From Cypionkella sp. (GTDB taxonomy: Bacteria; Pseudomonadota; Alphaproteobacteria; Rhodobacterales; Rhodobacteraceae), in contig NZ_JAQGKQ010000066.1 of the NCBI RefSeq assembly GCF_028290025.1, positions 1 through 64,000 of the forward strand: DNA of 64,000 bases, given 5' to 3'. Under the pieces are notes generated by a model, which saw only the letters and a program-made list of their open reading frames with translations, searched no databases and had not been told where the DNA came from. The position numbers and the translations under genes were made by a program. Positions 18,384-25,229 of the stretch are shown one piece after another (the first letter of the stretch is position 1; the number at the start of each line of letters is the position of its first letter).

Positions 18384-18412
18384 GGGTGCGGGGCGTTAAC
18401 CACCCCGCACCC
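18384..18412 (+). terminator. Hairpin after pheT
   Basis: GGGTGCGGGG pairs perfectly with CCCCGCACCC around a 9-base loop, starting 7 bases after the pheT stop. No T run follows on the plus strand, so it may be a weak intrinsic terminator or an mRNA 3'-end stabiliser. The next gene converges on it. Confidence 0.6.
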
Positions 18413-18499: not shown

Positions 18500-19174
18500 T
18501 CAGCGCTTTTGCCGCCAAGTGCCCAGCCAAGCCCCAATCCGACCGAAAAATCCGCCCGCCCGTGCCCGCGCAGCTCCGGCACGTGCTTCAACTCCATCCC
18601 AAGTTTCGCCCGCGTCCGCCACCGCAGGCTCCACCATCCGCTCCCAAAATTGTAGCCACATCCGCCGCAACATGAACACCCCAAACAGCAGTGCCAGCAG
18701 TACAATGATGTTAACATAGGGAATTATCCGCACGTCAGGCCCCGCCACAGCCTTCACAGCAACCGCATTCGGGTAAATCGACAGCCAAGCCAACCTCCAA
18801 CCGTAATGCGTCACCGACACCCATTTCGGAGCGGTCTCGGCCGATTTCAGATTGCCGGCCTCGGCCTGCAAGTTAGAGCTGTCATATTTAAAGTAAGGCG
18901 GCCAGATCCAACCAGTGTCCTCATTCCGGTAGACAATGACATCGCCATCCGGAAAAGCCGCCTCGATGAAGCGAATATCCCGCGTCACAGTGCTCTCACC
19001 GGTGCCTACATCCGGCGACGCATAGGCCCATGAATTCTCGGACCCAACCGTTGTGAGCCGATTGTAAGTGTTTGTAATCCTGACAACATCGTGCTGCGGC
19101 AGAGTGTAATTCAAAAAGCCCGCCACCACGAGCAACAGCAGAATTCGGATGCTCCACTTCACATAGGTCCACAT
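18500..19174 (-). CDS. DUF1523 family membrane protein (last gene of AAA+ operon)
   Basis: A 224-residue protein with an N-terminal span (about 8-24), an extracytoplasmic region beginning NYTLPQHDVVRITNT, and a second span (about 148-168) followed by a basic, alanine/glycine-rich cytoplasmic tail. The N-terminal half matches my memory of DUF1523, a family common in Rhodobacteraceae with no known role. It ends the six-gene operon starting at 24990, 12 bases after the preceding small membrane protein. Its span topology suggests it anchors or senses for the soluble ATPase system; that is inference. Confidence 0.75.
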   Translation of the reverse strand: MWTYVKWSIRILLLLVVAGFLNYTLPQHDVVRITNTYNRLTTVGSENSWAYASPDVGTGESTVTRDIRFIEAAFPDGDVIVYRNEDTGWIWPPYFKYDSSNLQAEAGNLKSAETAPKWVSVTHYGWRLAWLSIYPNAVAVKAVAGPDVRIIPYVNIIVLLALLFGVFMLRRMWLQFWERMVEPAVADAGETWDGVEARAGAARARAGGFFGRIGAWLGTWRQKR

Positions 19175-19186
19175 TCTGGTCGCTCC

Positions 19187-19453
19187 TTACTGATAGTTAA
19201 CAAAATAGACGGTCGCTGTAACGACCACCGCCGGGATGATATAAACCAACCAGAGCAGCCTACGGCGCAGCCCCTTTTCATAGGTTTGCATCCCGCCCCT
19301 GATATAGCTCTCACGGTCGCCCTCGATACCCCCGGCATCGAATTTCTTTTCCAACTTCTCTCGCCGAACCGATCGGGAATAGATCGAAATAAGCACATAA
19401 GCCACGGAGAGTATGATGAAACCCAGAATTGCGGCCCGCAAGATGCCAATCAT
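19187..19453 (-). CDS. Small two-span membrane protein in AAA+ operon
   Basis: An 88-residue protein with two hydrophobic segments (about 4-24 and 66-84) flanking a charged middle REKLEKKFDAGGIEGDRE. The ATG at 19453 overlaps the end of the upstream gene by 4 bases and has GGGGCAGAG ahead, so it is translationally coupled. No family recognised. Along with the DUF1523 protein it would provide the membrane part of the operon's product. Confidence 0.7.
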   Translation of the reverse strand: MIGILRAAILGFIILSVAYVLISIYSRSVRREKLEKKFDAGGIEGDRESYIRGGMQTYEKGLRRRLLWLVYIIPAVVVTATVYFVNYQ

Positions 19454-20811
19454 CTCTGCCCCCTCGTAACAGCGCCCCAAGGCCCAACAGCAGCCGCCAA
19501 ATCGCGTGCAGGCTTAGGTTCTGGCCGATGCCGATTGTCCATAGAAGGCTCCGGCCCAAACAACGCTTCCCGCGCGCCTTGGGCATCCACCTTATACTCC
19601 CGCTCCAGAAAATCGGCGACATACTGGCGCTTACGCTCCGACCAAGTTGCATATTGCGCGTAAAACAATTCCTTATGCACAATAAACATCTGGCGCACAT
19701 CCATCGGCGCCAACTCGGCCAAAAGCATGTTGACCAGATCGCGCTCCGGCCCGGGTGCCGCCCGCAAAGTGTAGAAATACGCCAAATTTTCCGAGGTGAT
19801 TCGGGGCCAATCGCCCGCTCCTTCCACCCAGCGCAAAAGCTGCGCCAATCCCAGAAATTCCTCCGGCAGCGCCCCTCCCAAACGATACGCGATCTTGCGC
19901 AAATCGGTGCGCCGCGCATCGCCGATTTCCAGATCAAGCGCCTCAGCGGCATCAACCAAAACGAAATCCATTTTTTGTCGCAACACCCCCGCGGCATCCA
20001 TCCCACGCGCCTGCACGATGGGTTCGACAAGGCCGTTACGCTCCAACCACTCGGCGACGGCATTGCGCTGCGTCAGGTCCATCACGGGAGAAATCGGCAT
20101 GTTTCCAAGAGCTTGACGCGGCTTTGTGCTGATCACACCGGGGAACTTTACATCGCGAAACACATAGAGCCCGCCGAAATGACTGGTCCAGAAACTCGGC
20201 TGTTGGAAAGTCATCGCGGGTAGATAGATCGGCATCCGCGTCACATCGCCGGTCTTTTTTGCAAGCTCGATCATCTCGGCCATTAGCACATCATCGCGCC
20301 AACCGTCGGGCTCTTGGCGGAAACGGTCAATCAGTTTGGCCAATTTGCTGGCATCGGCGACATGGCCGCCAATGGTATCTGCCTCGACGGTAATTTGACG
20401 AATTTCCAACAGTTTGGCCGCATTTGCGACCTCATAGACAGAGTTCTGCAACTCTCCTGCCACGGCATCACGCGCGGTCAGCGCAAAAAGTTGGCTTTCA
20501 TTGGCCTCGATAAATTGCTGCAGGATCCCCCGCGCAGTCGAGAATTTCATGTTCAACAACGGGGCCGATTTTTGACTGGTGGTCAGCAGGATAAACTGCC
20601 GATTGCAACCGTTCGGGTTCAGGTAAAGATCATCTCCCAATTCATCACCGATCTCTGGCGAATAACCCGAGATGTCGATGTGGAAGTCCTTCAGCGTCGT
20701 CTCTTTGTTAATCAGATGCTTTAGCGCGCGATTGTATCGCTCAACCAATTGCGGCGACGAAACCTCAATCAGGTTGCCAAACATTAGGCCCTTTTCGATC
20801 AGGCGTTTCAT
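19450..20811 (-). CDS. Conserved protein of unknown function, probably DUF6638
   Basis: A 453-residue soluble protein with no catalytic motif I can name. The N-terminal stretch GLMFGNLIEVSSPQLVERYN and the segment ISGYSPEIGDELGDDLYLNP look conserved; I recall this as the DUF6638 family, but that is from memory. The C-terminal 30 residues are basic and probably flexible. Its ATG directly abuts the stop of the AAA+ ATPase gene, so the two are almost certainly made in fixed ratio, suggesting a direct partner of the ATPase. Confidence 0.7.
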   Translation of the reverse strand: MKRLIEKGLMFGNLIEVSSPQLVERYNRALKHLINKETTLKDFHIDISGYSPEIGDELGDDLYLNPNGCNRQFILLTTSQKSAPLLNMKFSTARGILQQFIEANESQLFALTARDAVAGELQNSVYEVANAAKLLEIRQITVEADTIGGHVADASKLAKLIDRFRQEPDGWRDDVLMAEMIELAKKTGDVTRMPIYLPAMTFQQPSFWTSHFGGLYVFRDVKFPGVISTKPRQALGNMPISPVMDLTQRNAVAEWLERNGLVEPIVQARGMDAAGVLRQKMDFVLVDAAEALDLEIGDARRTDLRKIAYRLGGALPEEFLGLAQLLRWVEGAGDWPRITSENLAYFYTLRAAPGPERDLVNMLLAELAPMDVRQMFIVHKELFYAQYATWSERKRQYVADFLEREYKVDAQGAREALFGPEPSMDNRHRPEPKPARDLAAAVGPWGAVTRGQR

Positions 20812-22743
20812 TTACGCCTTCCCCTCGGAATACCGCCGCTTTGCTGCTTCCTGCCGTTTGAAATCACGCACCATGCCGTCAATTGCCACTTCGTCCGACT
20901 TATCAGCATAACGGAATTCACTGTCCGCGTAGCGATTGATTTCTTGGATCACCATTTCGACAGTGATCGGTTGCGTCAGCCCCTTAATCATCGTCAGCTT
21001 TTCGTCATACGGTTTAAAAAGGAACAGATCTGGGTTTTCCATCCAGGCATCGGGCAGTTCAAAGTCCATCGCTCGAACCTTCACAGCGTCAGTGATGTTC
21101 TTGATCGCGCGGCCGGTAAAACGTTCATCTGCTTGTTGAATTGCTTTCAAATATGTACCCAACTTCGCCAGTGTATCCAGCGCACCCAGATCGCTCTGCA
21201 CCTTGTCCCAGACCCTTAGCAAGCCATCCTCGTGCGGTTTTGCGTAGCCTGCAAAACTTTCGGTGACCGCCCGCTTAATCTCTTGGGCGGCGAATAAATC
21301 ATGGCCACCGACGGGAATGGAATGGTTCTTACCCAGCAAAAGCGAGAGAATGTCGATGTAATCCTCGCGGCTTTGCGGACCATCAACCAAAAATCGAGCG
21401 CCCGCCCTTTGGCGCAAAGCGTCATCGACATTTTCAGGGTAATTCGAGAACATCCCAAAGGTGCAATTGCCGCGCACCACGGTATTGGCACCTGCAAAGG
21501 CACCCATAAACACCGCCGTCACTTCCTGTTGCCCCGCCGAGGATTGCCGATCACCGCGTTTGCCAGCGACTTGGTCAATATCATCAATGGTGCCAAAGCC
21601 AATCACGCCCGGATCGAGCACGTTATCAATGAAAGCTTTGGCATTCTGACCCGATTTGCCCTGATACGAGTCGATCTGGTCAATTGAAAAGTTCTGATAG
21701 CGGAAAGGATAGCCTGCGGCTTTGCAGTAATCGCTTAGCAAACCAGCCATCATCTGAATAAGCGTGGTCTTGCCAGTGCCGGGTTTTCCATCGCCCATGA
21801 AGGTGAAGATAAAACCGCCCAACTCGGCAAAAGGGTTCAGCTTGCGCTCAAAATCATAGGCCATCAGCATTTTAGCCAAACGCAGACTTTGATACTTGGC
21901 AATGTGGTTGCCCACCACTTCCAAAGGCTTCTTGAACTGCATCGTCAGCGCGCCGCCCTTGGCAGCACGCGCGGGTTTGAAGCCAGCAATCGACAGAGCG
22001 TCCGCTTCGACCCGCCACGAGCCGCCCACAAAGGCTTGCAGGCGCGGCGCGCCCTCCGCCCGCAGGGCCACACGCTGCATCAACGCCTCGCAGAACGCAC
22101 TGACCACCGCGACAAGCCTCGCTTCGTCACTGGCAAGAAGGGCAATATCCTGATCTAATTCCCACAATGCGCCTTGCAAAGCCAAAGGCGCGTTGTCTGT
22201 CAGGATTTCCTCGACCGCCCCGACTTCGACAGTCGTTGCACCCATTGAAGGCGAGACCAAAAACGCTGTGGCGTTGGCGAAAGTAAAGAGCGTCAACAAC
22301 GCTTCGGCCGCGAGCAATTCGGTAAACTCGCTGCGTTTCCCATCTGGCAAACGGCCCTCAAGATTGGCTTTTTTCAGTTCGGCCAGCCCAGACTGCGCTG
22401 CAAAAGTATCAGCCATGGCCAAAGCAATCGCCACGCCGCGCCGTAGGCTGTGCAAGGCGGCGGCTTGCACCGGCGACACCAAGCCGTCGCCCAAGGCTTC
22501 CACCCTCTCAATGACGCGCACACCGCCGGGGCGCGCGGTGCTGCGGGTGACCATGCCGGGGGTGGTTGAACGGAACATCGGCCGCGTTCCGATGCCCGGC
22601 GAGCGCTCGGCTTTGGCCTCGACAACGGCTGATTTCGCCAATCGCGGCGTATGGTCGAACCCGGTCAAAAGCGCCAAAGCGCTGTCATACTGCGCGCGGA
22701 TGGTTTCTTCCCGCAGTTCCATTGTGTCACGCGCGCCGGTCAT
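20812..22743 (-). CDS. AAA+ ATPase, core of an uncharacterised operon
   Basis: A 643-residue protein. The C-terminal half is an AAA+ module: Walker A GDGKPGTGKTT (317-327), Walker B with IDDID (386-390), a sensor-1 asparagine in MFSNYPEN (about 434) and an arginine-finger region LRQRAGARF (443-451). The first 280 residues are a helical domain unlike classic MoxR or ClpX and presumably bind substrate or partners. No protease, transposition or restriction motif is seen. Flanked within 0-40 bases by co-directional genes of unknown function, it likely drives a remodelling complex. Confidence 0.82.
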   Translation of the reverse strand: MTGARDTMELREETIRAQYDSALALLTGFDHTPRLAKSAVVEAKAERSPGIGTRPMFRSTTPGMVTRSTARPGGVRVIERVEALGDGLVSPVQAAALHSLRRGVAIALAMADTFAAQSGLAELKKANLEGRLPDGKRSEFTELLAAEALLTLFTFANATAFLVSPSMGATTVEVGAVEEILTDNAPLALQGALWELDQDIALLASDEARLVAVVSAFCEALMQRVALRAEGAPRLQAFVGGSWRVEADALSIAGFKPARAAKGGALTMQFKKPLEVVGNHIAKYQSLRLAKMLMAYDFERKLNPFAELGGFIFTFMGDGKPGTGKTTLIQMMAGLLSDYCKAAGYPFRYQNFSIDQIDSYQGKSGQNAKAFIDNVLDPGVIGFGTIDDIDQVAGKRGDRQSSAGQQEVTAVFMGAFAGANTVVRGNCTFGMFSNYPENVDDALRQRAGARFLVDGPQSREDYIDILSLLLGKNHSIPVGGHDLFAAQEIKRAVTESFAGYAKPHEDGLLRVWDKVQSDLGALDTLAKLGTYLKAIQQADERFTGRAIKNITDAVKVRAMDFELPDAWMENPDLFLFKPYDEKLTMIKGLTQPITVEMVIQEINRYADSEFRYADKSDEVAIDGMVRDFKRQEAAKRRYSEGKA

Positions 22744-22782
22744 TTTGTTTCCAATCGGTTCTTTTCAATCGTTTACGCAAGC

Positions 22783-23916
22783 CTACCGCACGGGCAAAAT
22801 GCGATCACCTTCACCCACCACGAATTTGCGCAGTTCGCGAAAGCCGAGCGGATCAAGGTCTGCGAGCACTTGGTAGGGCCGCTCGGGCAGGATCACCATG
22901 CGATCAATCTTCGTCGCGCCGCTGTCAGGTGCGAAAGCGTCCAACTTGTAGACCTGACGTTCGGCACTGGAAAACCAACCCTCTTTGACCTCTTCTTCGC
23001 GGTCAGAAATCAGGTCTTCCACCGTCCATACCAGCGCCCAATCGTCGCCGTCAGGCGCGTTGGCATCTGCGAGAACCTGTGCAATCGGGCCGGACTGTAG
23101 GGTGAAATCATGGCTGTGCATCGGGCCAATTGTAATCCGCCGCAGACGTTTCGGGTGCAAGCCACTGAAATCTTTGTCGAACCCCTGAGCGATGGTCAGC
23201 AATTTAAGACCCAAAGCCGACTGCGCGATCAGATGCGCCTGCGCCATCGGCCAGCGGCGGTCATCATTTGGCAGGGGCTTTTTTCCGCTGTCTTCGACAT
23301 CCATCAGATAGACGGCGGGCAAGTTGGCTTGGGTGTCATATACCGCCCAATGGACCAAGAAATGCTTGCGCTCCTCGCCGCTGCGGCGGACATCTTCGAT
23401 CCATTGGCAATCGGGATCATTGCGTGGCCAGAAGATGCCACCGACGGCAAGGGATTCATAATAAAGCCGCTGGCTTAGCGCGAATTGCAACTGGATCGGC
23501 ACGGTCAGATCCCGCACGATCTGGCGCACCATGCGATCCTTCAGCTCAGTTTCCGACGCCATGCCGCCCAAGTGCTTTTGAACCTGCGCCGCGTCCAGCG
23601 CCATCATCATCAATTCTTGCGCCACCGGAAAACCGGAGTCGTGGCGATCAAACGTCAGCCGCGGCGAGCCTTCAGCCCGCCCCGTCATCAGATACTTGTA
23701 GTTCAGCGCCTTGAAGGTGCCGGTCAGCGCCGACAAATACCGCCCCAAAACCCGGGCCTCGGTGCGAGTCAAACGGCCCTCAGCCTCCACCTCACCCGCC
23801 ACCTTGATCAAATGGCGGGTGATCCGCTCAAACTTGGCAAAATAACGCCGCGCCGTGAGCGTGTCGTAAAGTTCTTGGTGGTCAGTTGTCAGCTGATCTT
23901 TGACCGTTTCGGCCAC
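22783..23916 (-). CDS. Conserved protein of unknown function in AAA+ operon
   Basis: A 377-residue soluble protein. The N-terminal 200 residues are mainly helical with many charged residues; the C-terminal half looks like alternating strands (ALVWTVEDLISDREEEVKEG, then QVYKLDAFAPDSG and MVILPERPYQVLADL). No enzymatic signature is recognised. It begins 3 bases after the coiled-coil gene ends and is followed 39 bases later by the ATPase. It may correspond to DUF6384 or a similar Rhodobacteraceae family, an uncertain recollection. Confidence 0.68.
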   Translation of the reverse strand: MAETVKDQLTTDHQELYDTLTARRYFAKFERITRHLIKVAGEVEAEGRLTRTEARVLGRYLSALTGTFKALNYKYLMTGRAEGSPRLTFDRHDSGFPVAQELMMMALDAAQVQKHLGGMASETELKDRMVRQIVRDLTVPIQLQFALSQRLYYESLAVGGIFWPRNDPDCQWIEDVRRSGEERKHFLVHWAVYDTQANLPAVYLMDVEDSGKKPLPNDDRRWPMAQAHLIAQSALGLKLLTIAQGFDKDFSGLHPKRLRRITIGPMHSHDFTLQSGPIAQVLADANAPDGDDWALVWTVEDLISDREEEVKEGWFSSAERQVYKLDAFAPDSGATKIDRMVILPERPYQVLADLDPLGFRELRKFVVGEGDRILPVR

Positions 23917-23919
23917 CGC

Positions 23920-24990
23920 TTATTCCCCGTATGCGTTCTTGTCGTGCTTCTCGACGATCTTCGCGAACCGCCGCGCGAAACGTTCATCCGCCTTGGCTTT
24001 TTGTTCTAGCACCTCGCGAGCGAACACCATGTGCCCCTCATGCGCCTCCAGCATATCCGCCATTTTCTGATTGGTCGCAGCCCCAATGGCGGCCATCGCC
24101 ACCTGCGCCTCTTGGTCGGTTTTCACGCCAATCTCGTTGATACGGTGGGCGACATCCTGCTGCTGAGCGGTCTTCAAGCTAGCGCTCAAAGCATCGTACA
24201 AAACCACCCGCTGCTTGGTGTCCGTTTGCAATTTATTGATCAAAACCAGCTGCGTGGCGGCCTGATTGGTCAAACTATCGACCCAAGTTTTACCTTTTTC
24301 AATGTAGCGTTCCAACGTCTGCGATTTGGCCAGTTGCACCTGTTCGTCCTGCACCAGCGCATTGTAGCGTCCGTTCAGTGTGGCAAGTTCGGTTTCCAGC
24401 TTGGTGCGCGCGCTGGCGTCTTGCTCGACGGAAATCTTGTTCTCAAGCTCGATAATCTTCGGGTCCATCGCGCCAACCTCTGCGCGCACGGCTTCCAGCG
24501 CCATCACAGTGGCTTCACGTTCGGTCAGAGTCGCGCCAAGGTTCGCGTCGACCGTGGCCTTCTGCGCGTTCAGCATGTCCAACTGACCCTGCAGCAACCG
24601 GACGATGATGTCGGACTTGGAAATCAAATCCTGCAACTTGCTGTCGATTGACGCCGTCCGCATCCGTTCTTGCCGCATCGATTCCGATTTGGCGTTGGAA
24701 AACATCCCGATGAAGCTTTCCATCCCAGTCTTCGAGCGCATTTCATCGAAATCTTTTGAAAACCCCGCCGTCACATCATCGAGGCCCATGATAAGCTCGG
24801 CGATATTAGCGTTCATCAGGTCGGTGTGTTTGTGGACATCCTCAAGCGAGGCGTTTTCGATATCTACCGAGGTTCCTGCGTCCAGCTTGGAGCGCGCTTC
24901 TTCGATCCGCCCAGTGATCGCGGAAATCTTCGCCTGCGCCGCCGCAACCTGTGCTTGGCTTTCCTTGATCTGCGTGTCGAAATCCGCCAT
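23920..24990 (-). CDS. Coiled-coil protein, first gene of AAA+ operon
   Basis: A 356-residue protein without signal or membrane span, rich in Ala, Gln, Glu and Lys with long heptad-like stretches: about 1-40, 130-210 and 280-350. One more basic patch with methionines (ESMRQERMRTASIDSKL) lies near 125. The layout is reminiscent of PspA- or TelA-like coiled-coil proteins that work at membranes, but no family motif is clear. The ATG at 24990 has a strong GGAGGG site 4 bases ahead, the best ribosome site in the operon, so it is probably the most abundant product. Confidence 0.72.
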   Translation of the reverse strand: MADFDTQIKESQAQVAAAQAKISAITGRIEEARSKLDAGTSVDIENASLEDVHKHTDLMNANIAELIMGLDDVTAGFSKDFDEMRSKTGMESFIGMFSNAKSESMRQERMRTASIDSKLQDLISKSDIIVRLLQGQLDMLNAQKATVDANLGATLTEREATVMALEAVRAEVGAMDPKIIELENKISVEQDASARTKLETELATLNGRYNALVQDEQVQLAKSQTLERYIEKGKTWVDSLTNQAATQLVLINKLQTDTKQRVVLYDALSASLKTAQQQDVAHRINEIGVKTDQEAQVAMAAIGAATNQKMADMLEAHEGHMVFAREVLEQKAKADERFARRFAKIVEKHDKNAYGE

Positions 24991-25229
24991 CGAACCCTCC
25001 GTTATGAATGTCGTGCCATGATATAGGCATGTTAAATCTAGATACATCACTTCGGCCGGGGAATTCGCATTGCTCCACGCGCTCTAGCGCAGCACCGTGC
25101 CCCGATGACCGATCATGCTAACCTTGCCGCAGTCACGGCCCGTCGCCAAGAGCTTATTGGGTTGAGGCAGTATCTGCTCCGCATTCGACCAATAATCGGT
25201 TGGGCGCGGCATCGCAGCGCCCCGGCGCG

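Follow-up and report, generated by a model that had tools for sequence, protein, structure and literature searches.

Several described systems combine an AAA ATPase with coiled-coil, accessory, or membrane proteins. In PspA/ESCRT-III systems, as passages of PMC11237479 describe them, a coiled-coil protein is encoded beside an AAA ATPase and membrane proteins, and in MoxR/RavA-VWA systems an AAA ATPase and its accessory proteins share an operon. Here, we analyzed a six-gene operon of Cypionkella sp. (family Rhodobacteraceae) found in the first 64,000 nucleotides of contig NZ_JAQGKQ010000066.1 (assembly GCF_028290025.1, forward strand); "the window" means this whole stretch, to which all coordinates refer. 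Open reading frame (ORF) calling placed the six genes, all on the minus strand from 24990 to 18500, where a first-pass annotation made from the sequence alone had put them: A encodes a coiled-coil protein, B a protein of 377 amino acids (aa), C an AAA ATPase, D a DUF6638 protein, E a small membrane protein, and F a DUF1523 protein. We find that A–D form a portable AAA module that has a dedicated operator, may carry one additional gene, and precedes membrane genes that differ from clade to clade.

The systems named above do not explain these genes. The first-pass annotation had allowed that placement of all the genes in a described system, such as MoxR/RavA-VWA or TelA, would end its claim of novelty, and Pfam and hhalign comparisons with MoxR/RavA-VWA, TelA, and PspA were all negative. 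Unlike MoxR, C matches PF00004 and not AAA_3, and no VWA match was found in A, B, D, E, or F at E ≤ 1. TelA (PF05816) is, like A, a long helical protein of similar size, but the profile similarity is no better than that of an unrelated control: A had no Pfam match to TelA, and three hhalign runs (43 columns) gave it probabilities of 10.5, 7.0, and 6.0%, compared with 12.6% for unrelated protein B (from the second run, whose extended sets include two flawed rows, D of L051 and F of L053) and 0.3% for reversed TelA. A true TelA (PF05816, 1e-101) is encoded elsewhere in the same genome, at G000:C116:64533-65525. For PspA, represented by 24 sequences, A reached 1.9% against 3.8% for reversed PspA, with no PspA_IM30 or Snf7 Pfam match, and PspA_IM30 was not found in the window's own genome, which is 89.8% complete. 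The excerpted passages of PMC11237479 do not describe the gene set A–F, and a PspA/Vps4-like way of working for A–D would be only an analogy. No role for the module was described in the literature under the family names searched (DUF6638, DUF1523, DUF2333), and DUF6638 was not named in the literature searched, for which subscription journals were mostly out of reach.

The six-gene order recurs in more than 100 loci, far beyond chance. By tblastn, all six genes were found in the same order in 37 of the 40 DUF6638-centered stretches, of which 39 come from the family and one from another. The exceptions are L041, with D-E-F only, and L060 and L080, where tblastn detected no E; a profile search found E in L080 and not in L060. 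The order A-B-C-D-E-F was also present in 70 of the best 80 named loci, and the remaining 10 are short stretches with a partial order of the same kind. These are the best 80 of at least 540 relatives, a set that leans to close relatives, and five genomes are common to the two sets. B sits between A and C in 39 of the 40 fetched stretches, the 40th being without A–C altogether, and in every named locus that spans A to C. Co-occurrence of at least five of the genes had been proposed beforehand as the test of a single system, and both sets bear it out with all six.

Within this order, the genes behave as two units. We sampled 120 family genomes, one per genus, with genome-wide counts for A, C, D, and F. 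A was present in 51, C in 50, D in 54, and F (DUF1523) in 106. A and C occur in the identical 50 genomes, and D is present in all of these; the 51st A (G355) is a fragment, with a D fragment beside a full F match, in what is a decayed locus. D occurs without C in three further genomes: G332 and G395, in both of which D lies where a contig ends, and G383. DUF1523 accompanies D in all 54 genomes that carry D, and 52 more have DUF1523 but no D. From these 52 we fetched 20 loci; there was no A–D match within 19 kb in any, and an E match adjoins F in 15 of the 20. Fourteen share at least one upstream and at least one downstream ORF with a module-bearing locus (115 such loci, compared on ORFs of at least 100 aa that lie up to 6 kb away on the same side and strand, at E ≤ 1e-25 and 60% coverage), so the whole of A–D is either there or missing ahead of E–F. 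E–F is a separate, commoner pair that persists where A–D is absent. The first-pass suggestion of one complex of six is therefore too strong, as E adjoins F without A–D and A–D occurs elsewhere without E–F. A profile match between D and E (99.4%) was discarded, being put down to the D row of L051 running past its stop into the frame of E; the F row of L053 also ran past its stop. Tree distances of A–D correlate at 0.67–0.76 within the family, with no species-tree control, and are not used as evidence.

The module also occurs beyond the family, with other membrane genes behind it. In a phylum sample, C (E ≤ 1e-15) was found in 26 of 398 genomes. Ten loci of another family (f160), which is rhizobial by its neighbors and by its grouping with S. 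meliloti (support 1.0), carry A-B-C-D without E or F matches. A gene for a DUF2333-type membrane protein follows D in rhizobial loci (by Pfam for L196), and relatives of the gene in that position in L193 were present in 9 of 12 other loci compared. The membrane genes behind A–D thus differ by clade, being E–F in Rhodobacteraceae and DUF2333 in rhizobia. On pSymB of S. meliloti, the order is thymidine kinase, A, B, C, an endonuclease gene, an insertion sequence transposase on the other strand, D, DUF2333, and formate-tetrahydrofolate ligase. At the same site, R. leguminosarum pSK03 (L230:9794-12148) has kept nothing of this set but DUF2333 and a divergent A (25% identity), a pairing that links A with the membrane partner. 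In the plasmid collection, A, B, C, and D match the same ten records, at 26–54% identity to the window, and pSK03 is an additional record matched by A alone. Four records are Vibrio plasmids of 0.88–0.94 Mb that carry A, B, C, and D, in the order A-B-C-D in the two that were read (L228, 0.93 Mb, and L229, 0.88 Mb). These two plasmids are large and non-mobilizable, with A–D beside mfd, RNase H family, LysM, and A24 peptidase genes.

Transfer over a greater distance is suggested by L198, a genome of another class that carries all six genes. In trees of A, B, and D, its sisters are L186 (Leisingera aquaemixtae) and L064, joined by L183 in the C tree, with support of 0.85–0.99, and its cassette has a GC content of 0.515 against 0.556–0.559 outside. 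From these trees and this composition, the module appears to move, including as a unit to another class. A phage-borne origin was considered and dropped, as the phage-collection records had no match to C.

A palindromic operator or promoter element precedes A on the minus strand (25025–25048 in the window, ending 34 nt before the start of A; consensus GATGTAAATnnnnTTAACATTnCC). Its core, TGT-N11-ACA, occurs no more than 250 bp upstream of A in 72 of the 114 loci scanned (L060 and 113 family loci), whereas spacings of 8–10 and 12–14 were each found in one to seven loci. The operator matrix scored at least 12 in 79 of 113 family loci and in none of 113 shuffled ones, and a matrix built from half of the loci found the site in 41 of 57 of the other half, with one match elsewhere in 1.06 Mb. 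The window site is the only place over the threshold used on either strand of the 64-kb window. In the 2.46 Mb of module-bearing loci, 136 of 142 matrix matches fall upstream of A, counting palindromes on both strands and with a matrix trained on these same sites. In the DNA scanned, the element is nearly exclusive to the region upstream of A. The 20 module-less loci gave two matches of at least 12, in L293 (12.2, 74 nt before E) and L302 (15.5, about 0.7 kb past F). The T-N11-A core resembles a LysR-type box. Control by CtrA, LexA, RpoH, or EcfG found no support, as patterns for their boxes occur upstream of A in 0, 0, 3, and 0 of 109 loci against 0.2, 0.4, 1.3, and 0.5 expected, with no clear enrichment.

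The C–D junction (20811–20812, minus strand), empty in the window, is a slot for an extra gene in many relatives. Of 124 non-redundant loci, 99 have a C–D gap longer than 300 bp and 12 have one no longer than 60 bp; the D–E and E–F gaps are at most 149 and 47 bp in 118 loci. Gaps above 300 bp also occur between A and B (27 of 132) and between B and C (6 of 134), so insertion is not limited to the C–D position. We defined conserved slot ORFs as those of at least 75 aa with a relative below 95% identity in another locus, after removal of overlaps. There are 88 in 78 of the 124 loci, and all 88 lie on the operon strand. Before overlap removal, the conserved slot ORFs numbered 95 on the operon strand and 20 on the other, and all slot ORFs 172 and 115. 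Counted before five duplicate loci were removed, blastp gave 15 slot families in at least two loci, including a small hydrophobic protein (27 loci), a protein that has by eye hydrophobic N-terminal stretches and a charged helical part (13), DUF559 endonuclease-like (11), HATPase-like (4), HEPN-like (3), and Mrr-type (2) proteins, and others. Pfam matches include the Mrr catalytic domain (3e-33) and DUF559 (1e-30); the HATPase-like protein has a further match, to DrmA (6e-8), and one slot protein carrying a pair of RNxxxH motifs matches HEPN_RiboL-PSP below the cutoff (0.0036). Most slot proteins tried had no Pfam match above the cutoff. Examples of the slot in relatives are L045:3572-4506, L175:10926-11639, and L177:10952-11986.

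Gene C (20812–22743, minus strand) encodes a 643-aa protein that exceeds the cutoff for Pfam AAA (PF00004; 43.9 vs. 21.2 bits, E = 4.2e-11), and by this profile, its Walker A, and its second region of homology it is a classical AAA ATPase. Aligned with i-AAA protease, fidgetin, and katanin chains, C resembles i-AAA and the fidgetin/katanin/Vps4 kind in its Walker A motif, pore-loop aromatic, sensor-1 asparagine, and second-region arginines. Walker A (residues 317–328, GDGKPGTGKTTL; 21760–21795), N434, which aligns to the sensor-1 asparagine, and R444, R446, and R450, which align to the second region of homology (21394–21444 with N434), are kept in all of 136 alignment rows, five of them duplicates, except for a variable position 320 and two changes at 327. 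Residues 358–364 (DSYQGKS; 21652–21672), presumably pore loop 1, align to katanin YRGES, and Y360-Q-G, aligned to Y-R-G of katanin, is invariant in 20 of 20 sequences. Unlike the fidgetin/katanin/Vps4 kind, C belongs to a bacterial operon, has no detected MIT domain, and carries an invariant D-D Walker B (residues 384–391, GTIDDIDQ; 21571–21594; codons checked). This motif is D-D-[IV]-D, with D387, D388, and D390 in 136 of 136 rows. D387-D388 aligns to D-E of fidgetin and katanin, so that aspartate replaces the catalytic glutamate of classical AAA proteins in every row. A D-D Walker B was also present in one Vibrio protein inspected. This substitution would question turnover and not descent, since the domain belongs by profile, and it suggests slow hydrolysis. 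The weakly active D2 ring of NSF has a similar D-D. Of the complete Walker A, Walker B, and arginine finger first ascribed to C, Walker A and the arginines stand, while Walker B is D-D and not the standard D-E. The N-terminal 280 residues had also been described as not matching familiar ATPases of such systems; residues 1 to about 290 have no Pfam match, so that no MIT domain is detected in C. A weak profile match of residues 167–260 to MSMEG_4306 (0.012) is the sole other N-terminal signal.

The remaining genes of the operon are also closely spaced and on the minus strand, with gaps of 3 (A–B), 39 (B–C), 0 (C–D), −4 (D–E), and 12 (E–F) bases, in keeping with the short gaps and single 4-base overlap of the first-pass annotation. 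With a Pfam library of 24,736 models and its gathering cutoffs, C, D, and F are above cutoff, while A, B, and E had no such match; NCBIfam gave nothing above cutoff for any of the six. At the Kyte–Doolittle threshold used, E and F each have two hydrophobic spans, as annotated, and A–D have none. Gene A (23920–24990) encodes a 356-aa coiled-coil protein, a putative client or filament of the ATPase, and the strong GGAGGG site noted before it was confirmed 4 nt upstream of its ATG. Among 18 aligned homologues, 17 share 71–82% identity with A, and the outlying L060 shares 45%. We compared median identities to the window with those of three housekeeping proteins encoded nearby, all of which A exceeds. 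In 14 loci with PheT, these were 78% for PheT and 85, 73, 83, 78, 54, and 64% for A to F; in 21 loci with PanB and PanC, they were 76 and 68% for these two and 81, 61, 76, 71, 51, and 54% for A to F. A and C are thus at or above the housekeeping level, D is about at it, and B, E, and F are mostly below.

Gene B (22783–23916, GTG start) encodes a soluble protein, a putative adaptor. Its AlphaFold2 model, from 65 sequences, has a mean predicted local distance difference test (pLDDT) score of 93.8 and a predicted template-modeling score (pTM) of 0.90, with a helical N-terminal half and a beta-rich C-terminal half. It had no match at E ≤ 0.001 in PDB (best 0.16) or BFVD (best 0.005, TM about 0.1), so B has a confident predicted model without a counterpart in either database; a new fold is not claimed. 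GTP cyclohydrolase I or QueF-like chains are 10 of its first 22 PDB matches (E ≥ 0.58, TM ≤ 0.43). We group these weak matches, with uricase and DHNA, as T-fold enzymes, and since none was significant a T-fold reading of B was not adopted. Gene D (19450–20811), first described as a 453-residue unknown, instead belongs to a catalogued family, DUF6638 (PF20343, 3.8e-210; 698.7 vs. 27 bits), and may encode a second adaptor; its AlphaFold2 model (61 sequences, pLDDT 80.7, with a low-confidence tail) had no PDB match at E ≤ 0.001 (best 0.54). The separable pair consists of E (19187–19453; 88 aa, membrane spans at residues 4–22 and 67–85) and F (18500–19174; 224 aa), whose assignment to DUF1523 is confirmed by Pfam (PF07509, 2.8e-63; 212.9 vs. 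23 bits). A terminator-like hairpin 3' of F (18384–18412, minus strand; 12 pairs, 10 of these G-C) has the strongest stem among 13 such sites in the region, where 8.0 are expected from shuffles.

The gene content, order, block behavior, operator, and slot are shown by these data, whereas the complex, the client, the adaptor roles, and the trigger are inferred, and several readings of the function of A–D were weighed. The one we favor, tentatively and at somewhat short of an even chance, is that A–D is a conditional membrane-proximal AAA machine in which a ring of C remodels the coiled-coil protein A at the membrane. Turning over ATP slowly, a hexameric ring of C would thread or unfold A, its client or filament; the adaptors would be B and D, which would position A or load C; and the clade-specific membrane partner, E–F or DUF2333, would site the machine at the cytoplasmic membrane. 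A regulator at the palindrome may switch the module on under some stress, and the slot gene, where present, could be an optional accessory. In its favor are the joint occurrence of A, C, and D with B in its fixed place, the six-gene set of L198, the classical AAA features of C, the strong conservation of A, the different membrane partners of different clades, the A–DUF2333 pair on pSK03, and the operator. Several observations weigh against this reading. A is without usable profile similarity to PspA or TelA, so a filament role for it is drawn by analogy. Neither B nor D is better conserved than PheT or PanB (B 73 and 61%, D 78 and 71%). In 34 of the 113 family loci the operator matrix finds no site, and the 13 outlying loci scored (the ten of f160, L060, L197, and L198) reach at most 2.3 with it. 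DUF1523 occurs without D in 52 of the 120 family genomes, so the coupling of E–F to A–D may be positional only. D can also outlive the rest, as G383 (locus L041) keeps D-E-F, directly behind a 950-aa ORF that is DNA polymerase I-like by eye, with neither A nor C found in a genome that is 77% complete. No E, F, or DUF2333 gene is annotated beside A–D on the two Vibrio plasmids read, and no interaction, phenotype, or expression datum was found for A–D.

The mobility of the block and its slot would also fit phage defense. A–D could be the core of an undescribed modular system of the abortive-infection type, with the slot gene as an interchangeable effector (a nuclease, a HEPN-like RNase, or a membrane protein) released or activated by the AAA machine. 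The block is carried or lacked as a whole at common chromosomal sites (14 of 20), it has been transferred as a unit to another class, it lies on large Vibrio and rhizobial plasmids, and the 15 families of its strand-locked slot include Mrr, DUF559, HATPase/DrmA-like, and HEPN-like proteins, all of which points this way. However, the best match of a core protein in PADLOC 2.0.0 was only TRIP13 (3e-4), over the AAA domain of C, followed by IetA (0.014) for C and REase_II (0.032) and LmuB (0.076) for A; B, D, E, and F had no match, and no core protein was assigned to a defense family. Membership in PADLOC families was accordingly rejected, as was MoxR-VWA by Pfam. The TRIP13 match recalls the TRIP13-HORMA arrangement of CBASS (cyclic-oligonucleotide-based antiphage signaling system), but no HORMA or CD-NTase match was found in the six proteins, and the model of B had no significant structural match. 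Furthermore, A and C are conserved like housekeeping proteins, unlike arms-race genes; an effector is not required, given that 12 of 124 loci have a slot no longer than 60 bp and that of the window is empty; and most slot proteins tried had no Pfam match, with the largest family (27 loci) a small hydrophobic protein. We consider this explanation, the main rival, rather unlikely. A broader form of it, in which A-B-C-D makes up the unchanging core of a modular system, so far undescribed, reaching from Alphaproteobacteria to Vibrio plasmids, and the C–D position is an interchangeable effector slot wired to a slow-hydrolyzing AAA switch under its own operator, seems doubtful as well, at slightly lower odds. 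C could instead be a membrane-protein quality-control translocase of the Msp1/ATAD1 or i-AAA kind that pulls out or removes clients in the inner membrane, with A, B, and D as adaptors and E–F as its dock. Weak AAA-domain matches to i-AAA protease (5e-5), Msp1 (0.03), and an outer-membrane helix translocase (0.05), and the tight coupling downstream of D, are consistent with this, but C has no membrane span and no Pfam protease domain, fidgetin matches it as well as i-AAA does, and its D-D Walker B suggests slow turnover. We regard such a role as improbable. Finally, E–F is separable from A–D, as might be expected if housekeeping genes that do not work together had come to lie side by side by chance. 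Yet one set of ten plasmid records is matched by A, B, C, and D alike, with an unchanged order in those read, and the module moves and goes missing as a block, with the copy in G355 decayed to A and D fragments beside an intact F match; chance adjacency is very hard to credit.

The module is present in 42–45% of the sampled family genomes, as well as in rhizobia and on Vibrio plasmids. Block-wise presence, a dedicated operator, a D-D Walker B, and a strand-locked slot lead to clear predictions for deletion and biochemistry. Should the slot prove to be an effector position, A–D would represent a new modular platform for immunity or stress; otherwise, the module would still be an unknown AAA remodeling system with a client suggested by gene order.

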